From positions 1 through 64,000 of the forward strand of contig CAJXKC010000002.1 of the NCBI GenBank assembly GCA_913055685.1: a DNA stretch of 64,000 nucleotides, in the 5' to 3' direction. The translations under genes and the position numbers were made by a program. Shown piece by piece: positions 4,837-9,446 of the stretch. Position 1 is the first letter of the stretch, and each line of letters begins with the position of its first letter. The DNA comes from an uncultured Flavobacteriales bacterium. GTDB taxonomy: Bacteria > Bacteroidota > Bacteroidia > Flavobacteriales > Schleiferiaceae. A model generated the notes under the pieces. That model searched no databases, had not been told where the DNA came from, and saw nothing but the letters and a program-made list of their open reading frames with translations.

Positions 4837-6081
4837 TTATTCATACCGCAGGCTCTCAATCGGGTCTAATCTACTGGCCTTAAGGGCGGGGTAGAATCCG
4901 GAGAGTAGTCCGACCACTAAGCAGAGCACTGCGGAGAGACTCATCCAGGTCCAGGGAATCACGAAGGATCCGCCGAACATTAGAGAGGTGCCATTACCGA
5001 TGAGGATCCCGAAAATGATACCCGCCAAACCACCCAATAGGCAAATGGCGATAGCCTCGGTGAGAAATTGACTCAGGATGGCGGTCGACTTGGCTCCGAT
5101 CGCCTTTCGTATACCAATTTCGCGGGTGCGCTCGGTGACCGAAACCAACATGATGTTCATCAAGGCAATAGCCGCACCGAGAAGAGTTACGGCGGCGATG
5201 ATGATTGCTGCTAAGCTTACGTAGGACAGGTTTTCGATTAAGCTTTCGCTGATGCTATCGCTTTTGATGACAGTAAAATTATTTTCCTGCACCGGTTTTA
5301 ATTTGCGTACCGCGCGCATGGTGGCAATGGCGTCGTCTTCCGCTTCATCAAGCTGGCCACTGCTGTGCGCCATGACATTTATCGCAAAGCTGCGATTGCC
5401 CGTTGCATACATAGCTCGGCCTTTGGTAATCGGAATCATGGTTGATTTATCCCCACCAAAGCCAAAGGAATTCCCTTTGGGTTCTAAAACGCCAATCACC
5501 CGAAAACGGTTACCAGAGAGCGTAATGAACTTGCCAATGGGGTCGATCTTCGGGAAAAGTTTGGAGACCAATTCTTGACCAATGATCACTACCGAAGCTG
5601 CTCCCTCAACATCGCTTTCGCTGATATTGCGACCTTTCGAAAGCGCGTAGCCCGCACTTTGCAGGTAGTTTTCATCGATAGCCATCACCGAAATATTGGG
5701 ATTGGTGGTGCGGTTGTCGTACTTCACCTCGGCAATGCCGGTACCCACAAAGGAAATGCTGCTAAGGGCGTGTTCCCGGGGCATTTTCTCTTTAAAGCGC
5801 AGGGCCTCATAATAGGTAATACTGCGGTAGTATTTGGGTCGCGAGCCGCGATTGCCAATGCGAATGTTGGGTGAGCGATTCTGAATGGTGAAGGTATTGG
5901 CCCCTAAGAGCGCGAACTGGCCGGTAAGGGTACCTTTGATGACATCAATGGCGGTGAGAATTCCCACCAGGGCCGTGATGCCAATGGCAATAATTAATGC
6001 CGTAAGGATGGTACGTAGCGCCTGACTTTTTATAGATTGCAGGGCGATTTTCAGGTATTCGAAAAATAGGCCTTTTCGCAT
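4837..6081 (-). CDS. ABC transporter permease, MacB/FtsX type
   Basis: This 414-residue protein has the MacB layout. An N-terminal membrane segment lies at about 18-45 (TILTALIIAIGITALVGI), then a periplasmic MacB_PCD core of about 220 residues (GANTFTIQNRS, VVIIGQELVSKLFP, FRVIGVLEPKGNSFGFGG), then three C-terminal FtsX membrane segments, with SVTERTREIGIRKAIGAKS between the first two. Such permeases pair with a LolD/MacB ATPase for lipoprotein release, peptide efflux or mechanotransmission. No ATPase gene is adjacent, so the partner must be elsewhere. The start at 6081 faces the divergent fusion gene across 32 bases. A one-mismatch -7 box (TAATTTAG) lies just before it. The substrate is unknown. 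Confidence 0.9.
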   Translation of the reverse strand: MRKGLFFEYLKIALQSIKSQALRTILTALIIAIGITALVGILTAIDVIKGTLTGQFALLGANTFTIQNRSPNIRIGNRGSRPKYYRSITYYEALRFKEKMPREHALSSISFVGTGIAEVKYDNRTTNPNISVMAIDENYLQSAGYALSKGRNISESDVEGAASVVIIGQELVSKLFPKIDPIGKFITLSGNRFRVIGVLEPKGNSFGFGGDKSTMIPITKGRAMYATGNRSFAINVMAHSSGQLDEAEDDAIATMRAVRKLKPVQENNFTVIKSDSISESLIENLSYVSLAAIIIAAVTLLGAAIALMNIMLVSVTERTREIGIRKAIGAKSTAILSQFLTEAIAICLLGGLAGIIFGILIGNGTSLMFGGSFVIPWTWMSLSAVLCLVVGLLSGFYPALKASRLDPIESLRYE

Positions 6082-6113: not shown

Positions 6114-8564
6114 ATGACAAAGCCTTCTAAAAATAGTGGAAAAGCGCCCCTTTTGCTGATTGGCTGGGATGCGGCTGATTGGTCTCTGATCAATGAAATG
6201 GAGGCCAAGGGACTGATGCCGCACTTCGCAGCCCTACGACAAAGGGCGACCGAAGCCTATTTGGCCAGCCTGGTGCCTACTCTGAGTCCGCTTTTATGGA
6301 CCAGCGTTGTTACCGGCAAGCGCGCCCATGAACACGGAATACTTTCTTTTGTGCAAGAGACTCCCCAAGGTATAGAAGCAGTATCAAGCCAGGCGCGTCG
6401 TAAACCGGCTATTTGGAATATCCTTAGTGAGGCGAAACTGCGCACAAAGGTCATTAATTGGTGGCCTTCCCATCCCGTGGAGGCGATAGAAGGTGAAATG
6501 GTTTCCCAGGCCTTTTTCCTCAATAAGGAAAAGCCTGTAGATGCTTGGGTTTGGCCCTTCCAAAAGGCAGAGAGCTACCGAGAAGCAATAGCTATTTCAG
6601 TTAGTGAAGCCGAGCTTAAGGTGTTCTTTCCGCTGCATAGCCAGGAAGAATTGACCGAGGATCCCTTGGTGCAGCAGGTAAAGGTAATTATCGAGCGTTC
6701 GGCTCAACAATTAAATGTGAGCCTAGCGGCCTTAGAGCCTGGTAGTTTTGATTTAGGTCTGGTTTATTTTGAAGCCCTGGATCAGATTAAGCATTTGGCG
6801 ATAAAATACCATCCGCCGCAGCTAGAGGAGATTTCGAATGCTGATTTTGAAAAATACCAACACATAATAGAAGGGGCCTACCATTGGCATGACCAAATCT
6901 TAGGGGCTTTTATGGCTCGCCTTGGTCCGCAGCAAAACTATATGATCATCTCCGATCATGGTTTTGCTTTTGACACCGCCCGACAATTGGAATTAAGTGA
7001 TATACCCGCTGCTCCGGCGACTGAGCATCGTCCCTTTGGGATGTTTATGGCGGCTGGTCCGGATATCCAAGCCGGACAAAAGCTTTTCGGGGCTAGCCTT
7101 TTGGATCTGTTTCCTAATATTTTGTACCACTTCGATTTACCGGTAGGGGATGATTTGGAAGGACGTATCTGGACTCAGCTTTGGAAAAATCAAAAGGCGA
7201 TTAGTCGCATTCCCAGCTGGGATCCGCTATTTGGCACTTTTCCTTTTGTGGGTGAGATCCAAGCGCAGCATAAGGATATGATCAAGGACTTGGTAGCCTT
7301 GGGTTATTGGGATGATAGCCTTAGTGATCAAGTCGAATTTATTCGTGAAGAGCAGGCTTATAATGAAGCAGTTTCTTGGGCCGAAGCCCATCAATACCTA
7401 AAGGCCATTGCCCTTTGCGAAGCTCATCGCGATAAAGCTCTAAAAGTTTTTCGCTGGTATGTTTTAGAAGCCCGCTTGCGTTTGCAAGCTGATAGTGCGG
7501 ATAGCTGGTTCAGCTGGTATGAAAACTTGGAAGGAAAATGGCAAGAACTGGTTCCGCTGCGTTTTAGCAAGGCTTTGGCCTTTATCCAGGCTGGCCGTAT
7601 TGCAGAAGCTTTGGAGCTGATGGAAGCCATGGTAAAGGCAGGCGTGGAGAGTCCGGTGCTCTTCAATGAATTGGCGCAGGCTTTATTCCTGTCTGGGTCT
7701 TTCAAGGCAGCGGGAGCGTATTTTGAAAGGGCTTTGCAAATTGATGCCCAGAGTGCCCGAGCCATGAATGGTATGGCGCAAATAGCTTTTGCGGAAGAGC
7801 GTTTCGAAGACTTTGAGCAATGGTCGAATCGCTCCTTGGAGTTAAAGTTTTTTCAGCCCCAGCTGCATTACCTTTGGGCTTTATGGCATTGGCAAAATGA
7901 TGATGAGGAAACGGCGGCAAAGGCACTGGATCTTTGCCTATCCCTAGCACCTAAGCATCAAAAAGCGCGCGCATTGAAAGAGAAAATGACTGACTCTGAT
8001 TTAGAAGAAGCGACGGTAGTGGTGAGCGGTTTCCCCCGCAGTGGCACCAGCATGATGATGGCGGTTTTGGAAGCGGCGGGCCTTGACTTATTGGTCGACG
8101 GGCATCGAGCCGCAGATGAGCATAATGCCAAGGGCTATTACGAATGGGAGCCTATTAAAAACTTGGCTCGCGGCATTGATTGGCCGGATAGCAAGGGAAA
8201 AGCGGTAAAGGTCGTAGCTCCTTTACTACCTTATTTACCCGCCGATCGTCGCTTCAAAGTAATTTGGATGAATAGGCCAACGGTAGAAATTGTGCTATCC
8301 CAGGCGCGAATGCAGGGAGAGCAGGCCGATTTGAGCAATTTCCCTTTTGAGAAGGGTCAGCTATTAGAATCGGAAAAGCAGCGCTTGCAGAATTATTTAA
8401 ATCGCCAGCCGCATCTCGACTGGATCAGCATAGAGCAGGGGGATTTATTCAGCAAAGCGGCGGAAGTTGCCGAGACCTTAAGTGCCTTTTTAGGCCGGGA
8501 AATAAAGGCCGAGCAGCTAGAAAAGGCAGTTGACCCAAAATTGCGGCGTCAGCGTATTGGCTAG
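6114..8564 (+). CDS. Phosphodiesterase-TPR-sulfotransferase fusion protein
   Basis: Three parts are visible in 816 residues. Residues about 11-360 are a type I phosphodiesterase/nucleotide pyrophosphatase of the alkaline phosphatase superfamily: LLLIGWDAADW (Asp19), PTLSPLLWTSVVTG with Ser58 where the nucleophile is expected, TGKRAHEHGI, VISDHGF-like ISDHGFAFD, and EHRPFGMFMAAG. Residues about 415-610 are TPR-like helices. From about 635 to the end is a sulfotransferase-like domain with a P-loop GFPRSGTS (639-646) matching the PAPS 5'-phosphosulfate loop, and later the FKVIWMNRP strand. No signal peptide is seen, so it is probably cytosolic. It is divergent from the permease gene. Substrates are unknown. 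The domain calls are solid by motif, but the joint role is not. Confidence 0.85.
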   Translation: MTKPSKNSGKAPLLLIGWDAADWSLINEMEAKGLMPHFAALRQRATEAYLASLVPTLSPLLWTSVVTGKRAHEHGILSFVQETPQGIEAVSSQARRKPAIWNILSEAKLRTKVINWWPSHPVEAIEGEMVSQAFFLNKEKPVDAWVWPFQKAESYREAIAISVSEAELKVFFPLHSQEELTEDPLVQQVKVIIERSAQQLNVSLAALEPGSFDLGLVYFEALDQIKHLAIKYHPPQLEEISNADFEKYQHIIEGAYHWHDQILGAFMARLGPQQNYMIISDHGFAFDTARQLELSDIPAAPATEHRPFGMFMAAGPDIQAGQKLFGASLLDLFPNILYHFDLPVGDDLEGRIWTQLWKNQKAISRIPSWDPLFGTFPFVGEIQAQHKDMIKDLVALGYWDDSLSDQVEFIREEQAYNEAVSWAEAHQYLKAIALCEAHRDKALKVFRWYVLEARLRLQADSADSWFSWYENLEGKWQELVPLRFSKALAFIQAGRIAEALELMEAMVKAGVESPVLFNELAQALFLSGSFKAAGAYFERALQIDAQSARAMNGMAQIAFAEERFEDFEQWSNRSLELKFFQPQLHYLWALWHWQNDDEETAAKALDLCLSLAPKHQKARALKEKMTDSDLEEATVVVSGFPRSGTSMMMAVLEAAGLDLLVDGHRAADEHNAKGYYEWEPIKNLARGIDWPDSKGKAVKVVAPLLPYLPADRRFKVIWMNRPTVEIVLSQARMQGEQADLSNFPFEKGQLLESEKQRLQNYLNRQPHLDWISIEQGDLFSKAAEVAETLSAFLGREIKAEQLEKAVDPKLRRQRIG

Positions 8565-8594: not shown

Positions 8595-9446
8595 ATGAAT
8601 GAAAAGAAAAAATCGGCCGAGAGCCTAAAATATATTGGTGCCCTTAGTGGAATACTGGCCAGTCCGCTGGCGCAGGCGCAAATTGAATATGTTGATTTAG
8701 CCGACACCACCCTTAACACCAATAATGCTTTTTACGATTTAAATATCGACAGCGATAGTTTGGGTCTGATTGATTATCGATTCATTCAGTATGTAGACAC
8801 CAGTATTTTTAGGGTAAGCGGAAGCTTTATTCAGGCTCGCGGTAATGCCGGAAACTCGGTGCTAGGCCTCGATTATGCCAATTATGCCTATCCTTTTAAT
8901 TTGAGTCCGGGTGACAGCATCGGTCCCCGCCAAGTTTACAAAGGCTCCGGTGGCAGCAGTGCCTTGGGTCAGCTTGCCCTCGAAATTAACGATACCGGTC
9001 ACGTTAACGACCAGTTCCCAGGAGCTTTAAATGGTTTAATTGGTTTACGCTTTCGCGCGGATGTGAATGATACCATTCGTGAGTTCTACGGCTGGGTACG
9101 AGTGGATGTGGCGGCAGATTATAAGTCAATGACCATTAAAGACTTTGCCTACAATCCCAATTATGGCGAAGGTTTAACCGCTGGTGAAGGCGCCCCTTGG
9201 ATTGGTTTAGAGGAAGAATTAGAATCACCCTTTTTATTGCAGCAGTTAGGTGGCAATCTTCATTTTAAAATTGAAGAAGCAGCAGCTGAACTGAGACTCA
9301 TCGGTCTAGACGGTAAGGAGGTCTATCGCCAAAGCTTTGCGCAAGGTGAGCATCGCTTAGAGCTAGCCACTTTTGAGCGCGGAATTTACATTGCCCAATT
9401 GGCCAATACCCAGCAGCAAGAAGAAATACGAGTACTGGTTTACTAG
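8595..9446 (+). CDS. T9SS type A sorted secreted protein
   Basis: This is a 283-residue protein of unknown function. It has a signal-like N-terminus (KYIGALSGILASPLAQAQ, cleavage near residue 29), a beta-rich body of about 180 residues with many Asp/Asn, and a segment YGWVRVDVAADYKSMTIKDFAYN that I have seen in other secreted Bacteroidota proteins. The last 60 residues look like a type IX sorting domain: LRLIGLDGKEVYRQSF, HRLELATFERGIYIAQL, RVLVY. It lies 30 bases after the fusion gene on the same strand and could be read through from it. The next gene converges after two bases. Confidence 0.75.
   Translation: MNEKKKSAESLKYIGALSGILASPLAQAQIEYVDLADTTLNTNNAFYDLNIDSDSLGLIDYRFIQYVDTSIFRVSGSFIQARGNAGNSVLGLDYANYAYPFNLSPGDSIGPRQVYKGSGGSSALGQLALEINDTGHVNDQFPGALNGLIGLRFRADVNDTIREFYGWVRVDVAADYKSMTIKDFAYNPNYGEGLTAGEGAPWIGLEEELESPFLLQQLGGNLHFKIEEAAAELRLIGLDGKEVYRQSFAQGEHRLELATFERGIYIAQLANTQQQEEIRVLVY

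Follow-up and report, generated by a model that had tools for sequence, protein, structure and literature searches.

The window, a stretch of 64,000 nucleotides from an uncultured Flavobacteriales bacterium, carries two closely spaced genes, one for an enzyme with three parts and one for an exported partner protein (Table 1). A sequence-only reading had described the first product as an 816-residue chain joining a hydrolase of the alkaline phosphatase (AP) superfamily, a TPR section and a C-terminal sulfotransferase, and this was confirmed by the open reading frame, by Pfam and by near full-length relatives. The motifs GWDAADW (residues 17-23), ISDHGF (279-284) and GFPRSGTS (639-646), as well as Ser58, all lay where they had been claimed, and both catalytic modules looked intact in the sequence.

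Table 1. Features of the enzyme gene and the adjacent partner gene, with coordinates in the window.
Feature	Position	Strand	Basis or remark
Enzyme gene, NPP-type hydrolase / TPR / sulfotransferase, 816 aa	6114..8564	+	ATG start; ORF, Pfam and model
AP-superfamily domain, NPP-like fold, about residues 10-365 (limits approximate)	6141..7208	+	Pfam and structure comparison
Asp19, predicted metal ligand	6168..6170	+	invariant 81/81, partly by construction (within the search-pattern peptide)
Ser58, predicted nucleophile	6285..6287	+	invariant 81/81
Asp223...His227, predicted metal ligands	6780..6794	+	invariant 81/81
Asp281-His282, predicted metal ligands	6954..6959	+	invariant 81/81
His305, predicted metal ligand	7026..7028	+	invariant 81/81
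Helical TPR solenoid, about residues 386-625	7269..7988	+	Pfam, model; invariant His585
Sulfotransferase domain, modelled alone, residues 626-816	7989..8561	+	model, structure and profile comparisons
5'-PSB (PAPS) loop GFPRSGTS, residues 639-646	8028..8051	+	sequence, alignment
Predicted 3'-phosphate-binding stretch Arg721...Ser729	8274..8300	+	both invariant 81/81
Partner gene, exported protein, 283 aa	8595..9446	+	starts 30 bases past the enzyme stop codon, same strand
Partner leader, residues 1-29: basic n-region, Tyr13, hydrophobic core, LAQAQ end	8595..8681	+	
Leader Tyr13 codon	8631..8633	+	aligned Tyr conserved in all partners of A2 (38/38)
Conserved partner domain without a Pfam family, mature part of model A3	8682..9191	+	YGW motif, invariant Trp167
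T9SS-type C-terminal tail, weak	9267..9440	+	TIGR04183 E 0.0014

As relatives we took the best 80 of 520 stretches, which together with the window enzyme make up a set of 81. All 80 matched the chain over nearly its full length in a single open frame, and a full-chain structure model built from 55 sequences had a mean pLDDT of 90, so the three-part chain is real, far beyond chance. A one-off fusion or an assembly error was rejected because of these relatives. The predicted metal-ligand and PAPS-binding residues were invariant throughout the 81. Neither the sequence nor the model shows a hydrophobic stretch ahead of the first strand (residues 13-18), so a cytosolic location fits the enzyme; the earlier reading, seeing no signal peptide, had expected a cytosolic substrate.

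The architecture is not unique, and by sequence it occurs in several kinds of bacteria. A phylum-wide search with the single protein matched 28 of 198 genomes at E <= 1e-3, only 2 of which held the full architecture, the window's own genome and G064; in a sample of the order, the enzyme was present in 53 of 395 genomes (E <= 1e-30). The question of whether the architecture is already common and assigned has two answers: it is widespread, but text searches of one open-access library gave no description or assignment of it and, as had been supposed, no characterised example.

The N-terminal domain was matched by Phosphodiest (PF01663) over residues 13-285 of the window protein (Pfam, E 7.9e-24) and at E <= 1e-3 in 55/55 aligned members. 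Its fold resembled human ENPP3 and ENPP1 (Z 26.3, rmsd 3.0-3.1, 282 aligned) and Xac NPP (Z 25.9, rmsd 2.6, 270 aligned). The domain shares with this NPP family the predicted two-metal ligands, invariant here, and we take D19, S58, D223, H227, D281, H282 and H305 to fill the roles of the AP-superfamily ligands and nucleophile. The NPP nucleophile is usually threonine, whereas the window enzyme has Ser58, and it further differs from the family in looking cytosolic and in being fused to a TPR section and a sulfotransferase. Formylglycine (type I) sulfatases carry the nucleophile motif C/S-x-P-x-R. The window enzyme lacks it, reading S58-P-L-L-W, although PF00884 matched 32/55 aligned members (best E 3.8e-10).

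Several Pfam TPR models matched within residues 486-624, and a PDB search with the whole protein returned 42 sequences with TPR/PPR-type matches, many of them designed. Proteins matching the enzyme model in its hydrolase and TPR parts (AP-TPR proteins) were found in 20 of 199 genomes of a Blastocatellia-centred sample at E <= 1e-100, a count that includes the full-length G574. They differ from the window enzyme in having open frames of 846-1218 aa, and in the three examined (L237, L238 and L239) the sulfotransferase model was absent at E <= 1e-3. By reading, L239 has an SPFH-like N-terminus, and the L237 and L238 genes, from two genomes, adjoin LptF/LptG-like permease genes.

NPP-type enzymes act on nucleotide phosphoesters, and with so strong a fold match the hydrolase might serve the sulfotransferase only, by clearing its product PAP or surplus PAPS. 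That role we consider unlikely, being weakened by a separate CysQ-family gene for PAP removal, which scored above cut-off in the genome, and by the existence of AP-TPR proteins in which no sulfotransferase part was matched. As for PAPS supply, a family search found an APS kinase in the genome; by reading, CysD- and CysN-like genes adjoin it, and APS-kinase-like genes lie within 4 of the 81 enzyme loci.

The sulfotransferase domain appears to have an intact PAPS-binding site. The PAPS loop had been called intact, and its residues G639, P641, R642, G644, T645 and S646 proved invariant in 81/81. Whether the domain keeps the 3'-phosphate-binding residues of sulfotransferases is answered in part by Arg721 and Ser729, which profile alignments pair with the R...S of solved SULT1 enzymes. 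At the curated Pfam cut-offs the window protein alone fell short, with 16.3 bits against 27 for Sulfotransfer_3 (PF13469) and 12 against 22 for Sulfotransfer_1, and at E <= 1e-3 these families matched 53/55 and 43/55 aligned members, respectively. Modelled alone, the domain reached a mean pLDDT of 93, and all 50 matches listed by VIA-align were sulfotransferases (best Z 12.8).

The kind of sulfotransferase was less sharply indicated. The first seven VIA-align ranks were TPST entries at Z 12.3-12.8 and the next stood at 11.8 or below, a lead of 0.5-1.0 that amounts to a near tie. Foldseek (best E 4.5e-5) ranked Teg12 and StaL above TPST, and SULT1 enzymes scored best with the whole-domain profile. 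When the P-loop half alone was searched against the PDB, all 6 sequences at E <= 1 were protein-tyrosine sulfotransferases. Between the two PAPS motifs, where TPSTs have their catalytic glutamate, the acidic residues D662, D668 and E677 are invariant; the sequence alignments to TPST end before that region. Animal TPST1 and TPST2, narrowly first in the VIA-align ranking (rmsd 3.0-3.6, 162-167 aligned), share an identity of 14-18% with the domain, and unlike them the window enzyme has no Golgi anchor and carries extra domains.

In Bacteroidota the partner proteins end in T9SS-type tails, whereas partners at some other loci have PEP-CTERM tails. The window partner did not reach the cut-off for the Por_Secre_tail/type A sorting domain (18.5 bits against 23), which the relative L013 passed with 36.7. 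We then asked how regularly the two genes occur together. Single-linkage clustering, which may partly join proteins through their T9SS tails, placed the partner family in 70 of the 81 loci and the next family in 16. With a profile lacking the T9SS tail, we found the partner domain in 76 of 87 enzyme loci, these being the 81 and 6 more from cyanobacterial and gammaproteobacterial samples; the profile rows came from 35 of the 87, and 41 of the remaining 52 matched. The nearest copy lay less than 700 bases from the enzyme in 68 of the 76 (39 downstream on the same strand, 23 upstream on the opposite strand and 6 upstream on the same strand). The domain was absent from the sequence examined at 11 of the 87 loci, 6 of which have less than 2,000 bases on a side, whereas L009, L033, L078, L232 and L235 lacked it despite at least 2,000 bases on each side.

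Among whole genomes, 51 of the 53 with the enzyme in the order sample also carried the partner domain, as did 39 of 40 enzyme genomes chosen from the 80 loci; in the fortieth, G585, it was found nowhere. The positive genomes of the 40 included records titled Chromatiales, Acidobacteria, Blastocatellia, Armatimonadota and cyanobacterium, five records absent from the partner profile, in which part of the other 35 genomes is represented. By sequence, linkage of the enzyme to one exported domain family recurs in records of several phyla. The domain can also be numerous, with 24 matches in genome G598.

The sequence-only reading had suggested that the chain could act on a lipid or glycan, replacing a phosphate-linked group by sulfate, and the partner would then be only co-regulated. 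The two intact-looking catalytic sites are in keeping with such a swap, as are several other Sulfotransfer_3 genes that score above the cut-off in the genome, one of them beside a glycosyltransferase-like gene, and the LptF/LptG-like neighbours of L237 and L238, since envelope lipids may be what AP-TPR modules act on. We nevertheless find it quite unlikely: an exported surface protein is the sole family that recurs in over a fifth of the 81 loci, no other exceeds 16, and the sulfotransferase domain ranks protein-tyrosine sulfotransferases first, by a small margin. It would also leave unexplained that the leader tyrosine of the partner tracks the enzyme, as described below. The recurrent pairing, the cytosolic location and a TPR section next to an export leader would also suit an export chaperone or checkpoint, in which the TPR section holds the leader while the sulfotransferase and hydrolase folds sense PAPS or PAP. 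The invariance of catalytic and cofactor residues in both domains across 81/81 argues instead for catalysis, and we regard this role as very improbable.

In the order sample, a tyrosine ahead of the hydrophobic core of the leader was present in 48/48 partners next to the enzyme, with adjacency assigned from coordinates, in 15/24 other homologues in enzyme genomes, and in 10/27 homologues in genomes lacking the enzyme (8/18 in genus g113 and 2/9 others, L131 and L142). It was scored when it lay roughly 14-19 residues ahead of the mature start. This rule was adopted after a first count, and under it the enzyme-lacking figure rose to 10/27 from 2/27, or from 4/27 when other hydrophobic residues were allowed at -3. 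In that first count, automatic choice of start codons had cut off real leaders, and matches below 40 bits were skipped; L271-L273 were dropped. A strict LxxY motif was rejected, as leucine at -3 gave 22/48 adjacent, 13/24 other and 2/27 enzyme-lacking copies and the window's own leader has serine there. The 27 copies came from 26 of the 36 enzyme-lacking, partner-positive genomes of the order; those left out (G025, G174, G201, G223, G271, G353, G363, G388, G393 and G487) held partial or weak matches, most in frames of more than 700 aa. By a crude signal-peptide rule, the tyrosine occurred in 17/124 other signal-peptide genes of the same loci against 64/71 members of the partner family. By reading, the neighbours of L077 (a cyanobacterium MAG) and L026 did not have it at the expected place.

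In a tree of the mature domains without the leader, in which 47 rows represent the 48 because second matches of a locus were left out, the g113 copies grouped in a single clade (SH-aLRT 99) that lay inside the enzyme-linked partners. Parsimony gave 5 changes of the tyrosine in the ingroup, every one of them on an enzyme-lacking lineage; such lineages make up 4.75 of 29.85 branch-length units (p about 1e-4 to 2e-4). This test was designed once the pattern was known and used a quick, long-branched tree with its root placed on the ordinary-leader group, and the change at L145, one of the five, depends on a long branch. On these sequences, the leader tyrosine is constant beside the enzyme and changes only on lineages without it. 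The partner being usually adjacent, and its leader tyrosine kept beside the enzyme and often lost without it, the enzyme probably acts on the partner. We rate the chance that the partner is its direct substrate or client at slightly better than even.

Our preferred reading, to which we give an even chance, is a two-gene system in which the cytosolic chain acts on the adjacent surface protein before export. The TPR section and sulfotransferase domain would bind the partner leader around the tyrosine, and sulfate would pass from PAPS to the partner, most likely onto that tyrosine. The hydrolase domain would reverse or complete the cycle, for instance through removal of sulfate or phosphate, and the partner would then be exported by Sec and sorted by the T9SS or PEP-CTERM system. 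As the acceptor itself we propose the leader tyrosine only tentatively. It normally leaves with the signal peptide, so sulfate placed there would miss the mature partner.

Docking is an alternative role for this tyrosine. In a leader-guided, RiPP-like arrangement, which overlaps our preferred reading but has a different acceptor, it would only dock the TPR section, and the sulfate, placed on the mature surface protein, would survive signal-peptide removal. By reading, tyrosines with leucine at -3 occur at other distances from the core (for example in L052, L069, L067, L024 and L056), and the leader of RaxX is also reported to be removed after sulfation (PMC6637879). However, among the Ser, Thr and Tyr columns listed for the mature domain, none was both nearly invariant beside the enzyme and lost in its absence, and none separated enzyme-linked from ordinary-leader copies as sharply as the leader tyrosine, which makes this arrangement doubtful. 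The best mature-domain trackers were Asn87 (96/127 enzyme-linked vs 1/32 ordinary-leader), Asp171 (103/129 vs 1/32) and a threonine at position 33 (87/127 vs 5/32). This column comparison left out partners from the 80 loci that lacked a tyrosine in the first 60 residues or fell outside 240-345 aa, and its leader tyrosine score of 125/125 is partly by construction, non-adjacent positives having been picked for tyrosine, so that 48/48 is the figure to use.

The nearest known system we compared, by description, is RaxST-RaxX of Xanthomonas. In the sections consulted of two papers (PMC6637879, PMC9372746), RaxX is sulfated by RaxST in the cytoplasm before secretion, with PAPS from housekeeping genes and a raxX-raxSTAB cluster that includes a type I export system; RaxST is the bacterial case of a TPST, which most bacteria do not encode (PMC9372746). 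Both systems would pair the gene of a cytosolic PAPS-dependent sulfotransferase with that of an exported protein with a removable leader. Those sections mention no hydrolase or TPR part for RaxST, whereas the window sulfotransferase is fused to both, and the window partner is larger, with a T9SS- or PEP-CTERM-type tail in its family and its constant tyrosine in the leader.

If the enzyme family does sulfate its neighbour, pre-export protein sulfation would characterise many free-living bacteria from several phyla, and the locus would supply an enzyme already paired with its substrate, together with a leader motif by which more substrates could be sought. The puzzle of two opposing chemistries in one chain can now be tested directly, on a specific protein and a specific residue. 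In a further, improbable reading, writer and eraser share the chain and act on the leader tyrosine: the sulfotransferase would put a negative charge on the leader n-region and so hold back Sec export, and the NPP-type hydrolase would take the charge off again and let the protein go. Secretion would then be switched reversibly through the leader, in combination with T9SS as well as PEP-CTERM sorting.

The window's own genome holds a homologue of the partner domain, L086, with a second sulfotransferase gene near it; this was set aside as not central, since it adjoins a glycosyltransferase-like gene.

Every motif named in the sequence-only reading, which had placed an alkaline-phosphatase-superfamily hydrolase, a TPR section and a C-terminal sulfotransferase in one chain, was present in the 816-residue open reading frame at the position claimed for it. 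In Pfam searches the window enzyme scored E 7.9e-24 against the type I phosphodiesterase family and also matched TPRs, and taken singly it fell under the cut-off for the sulfotransferase families; among 55 aligned members, 53 matched Sulfotransfer_3 and 43 matched Sulfotransfer_1 at E ≤ 1e-3. Scanning 84,980 species genomes, we obtained 534 pattern matches, and 520 of these encoded a relative. We kept the best 80 of the 520, all of which covered approximately the full query in a single frame at 28-41% identity. Across these 81 proteins (window plus best 80 of 520), the predicted metal ligands D19, D223, H227, D281, H282 and H305, the predicted nucleophile S58, the PAPS loop residues and the 3'-phosphate pair R721/S729 were invariant; residues 16-23, D19 among them, fall inside a peptide that served as a search pattern.

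The full-chain model had a mean pLDDT of 90, and its predicted N-terminal domain aligned with NPP enzymes (Z 26.3, rmsd 3.0-3.1, 282 residues aligned). Modelled by itself, the C-terminal domain had a mean pLDDT of 93, and the first seven entries in its structural ranking were tyrosylprotein sulfotransferases (TPST; Z 12.3-12.8), a small lead over Teg12 (11.8), SULT7A1 (11.7) and then others; Foldseek placed Teg12 and StaL above TPST. At E ≤ 1, the only PDB sequences matched by a profile of the P-loop half were six protein-tyrosine sulfotransferases (E 0.0075-0.038), and the top scores for the whole-domain profile were SULT1 enzymes (E 2e-6).

In an order sample of 395 genomes from the window's order, 53 had an enzyme match at E ≤ 1e-30, some of them truncated by a contig end or matching as two separate pieces within a single frame. 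Full-length enzymes occurred in 2 of 146, 1 of 199 and 5 of 274 genomes sampled around a cyanobacterium, a Blastocatellia and a Chromatiales record, respectively (centre genome counted), and the full architecture was recovered from 2 of 198 genomes in an even phylum sample searched with one protein as query. Taxon names outside Bacteroidota are those of locus-record titles, and contigs may be misbinned; two such loci, L018 and L065, look like Bacteroidota contaminants, judged from neighbour genes. AP-TPR proteins of ~1000 aa that did not match the sulfotransferase model were seen at L237 (genome G925), L238 (G775) and L239 (G768), with LptF/LptG-like permease genes adjoining the first two and a SPFH/prohibitin-looking N-terminus in the third (by reading); these proteins may form an envelope family of their own.

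Coordinates of the enzyme gene and its neighbours in the window
Feature	Coordinates	Strand	Remark
Enzyme	6114-8564	+	816 residues
Partner gene	8595-9446	+	starts 30 bases past the enzyme stop
MacB-like ABC permease	4837-6081		transcribed away from the enzyme; gap 32 bases

Single-linkage clustering of the surrounding open reading frames placed one family, that of the exported partner, in 70 of the 81 loci (window plus best 80 of 520) and the second most frequent in 16, although T9SS tails may contribute some links. The MacB-like permease clustered in seven of the 81 only (the window and L001-L006). Partners typically combine a basic leader and a hydrophobic core with an end of the A-x-(A/G)-Q type, a YGW-motif domain and, where they come from Bacteroidota, a T9SS-type tail. 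No Pfam family covers the domain (the window copy had 0 hits), and one of 38 members weakly hit FG-GAP. Using a tailless profile built from the partners of 35 loci, we found the domain in 76 of 87 loci (the 81 plus six from cyanobacteria and gammaproteobacteria), or 41 of the 52 outside profile construction, and it lay ≤ 700 bases from the enzyme in 68 of the 87, in three main arrangements. The search of the surrounding stretch did not find it in 11 of the 87: L014, L029, L034, L037, L056 and L072, where one flank or both is shorter than 2,000 bases, and L009, L033, L078, L232 and L235, where neither flank is that short. The genomes of L009, L014, L033, L034, L056 and L078 carry it elsewhere or past the locus stretch, the partner cluster has a member at L029 and, at L037, a fragment of a tail, and the L235 neighbour matched in weak pieces only. 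Five enzyme genomes (G261, G341, G415, G493, G545) have the domain only at a distance from the enzyme; in G465 and G533 of the order sample the enzyme is fragmentary and the domain was not found. In genus g116, G346 and G475 lack both and G513 has both. The 3.3-Mb genome of L036 (G598) holds 24 domain matches, four consecutive behind the enzyme.

Neighbours at cyanobacterial L231 and gammaproteobacterial L234 join the partner domain to a PEP-CTERM tail over the TIGR02595 cut-off, which the L235 tail also exceeds; PEP-CTERM-looking tails at L233 (two copies), L236, L026 and L074 fall under it. Tails of the (S)LGLLALGxxGxxxxRxxR type occur on partners or small open reading frames near the enzyme at L026, L038, L069, L074 and L231-L236, and since just some pass the PEP-CTERM model, an additional tail class may exist.

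Only M1, Y13 and W167 were invariant in 38 aligned partners. In the order sample, a leader tyrosine, scored anywhere in the stretch ahead of the mature start, was present in 48/48 enzyme-adjacent copies, 15/24 non-adjacent copies of enzyme genomes, 8/18 copies of genus g113 and 2/9 copies of other enzyme-lacking genomes (Fisher test, adjacent versus enzyme-lacking, 3e-10, kinship ignored). Tyrosine stood in this stretch in 64/71 partners versus 17/124 other signal-peptide genes of the 81 loci (window plus best 80 of 520), signal peptides being called by a crude home-made rule. Neighbours at L026 and L077 lacked it (by reading).

Genus g113, of the window's own family, gave no enzyme match in its sampled genomes; 18 retain the partner domain, and G525 lacks both. 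Its partners have short ordinary signal peptides with Y, H, N or F/W at the tyrosine position, and form a single clade (SH-aLRT 99) within the enzyme-linked partners of the mature-domain tree. Parsimony gave five ingroup tyrosine changes, three within g113 and, judged by the tips, one each at L143, which forms with L142 a second enzyme-lacking pair, and at L145, enzyme-lacking as well and on a long branch. Because enzyme-lacking lineages make up 4.75 of 29.85 units of branch length, five of five changes falling there has p ~1e-4 (2e-4 including stems), in a post hoc test on a quick tree that we rooted on homologues with ordinary leaders. That group, including own-genome homologue L086, has normal signal peptides even in enzyme genomes and serves as an internal control, 6/7 of its enzyme-genome rows lying in one clade. 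The tyrosine is kept where no enzyme was detected in G350 (L131) and G233 (L142); the former absence may reflect a gap in the assembly, the enzyme being present in four genomes of genus g111, to which G350 belongs. About 1.5 kb from L086 lies a separate Sulfotransfer_3 gene (G000:C1:66875-67504, L284), adjoined by a glycosyltransferase-like gene.

Constant beside the enzyme and changing only where it is gone, the leader tyrosine fits an acceptor or a docking role. The TPST-like predicted structure would favour the sulfate acceptor; removal of the signal peptide favours the docking point. Most likely, the cytosolic enzyme would encounter the partner precursor ahead of Sec export, the leader-tyrosine region would dock onto the TPR/sulfotransferase surface, and sulfate would pass from PAPS to the partner. 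The hydrolase domain may remove the mark or clear a nucleotide. RaxST-RaxX is the nearest characterised analogue of the pair (PMC6637879, PMC9372746). We found no description of the architecture or the pairing in one open-access library, a search that may miss papers in subscription journals.

In the window's genome an APS kinase gene adjoins genes that read as CysD- and CysN-like and one that reads as a probable anion transporter, and a CysQ-family gene exceeds its cut-off, so PAPS synthesis and PAP removal are probably possible. Seven other places in the genome exceed the Sulfotransfer_3 cut-off, two only with neighbours in frame, which points to further uses of PAPS. The APS kinase and CysD-/CysN-like genes lie within a polysaccharide-type cluster as read (G000:C5:28000-46000, L084), with a transporter-like 646-aa protein, a setting that suggests sulfated polymers too. 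Gammaproteobacterial enzyme loci are also flanked by additional small genes that read as sulfotransferase-like, of the YPKSGNVW type or related to it (L235, 9368-11440; L236, 8174-9031).
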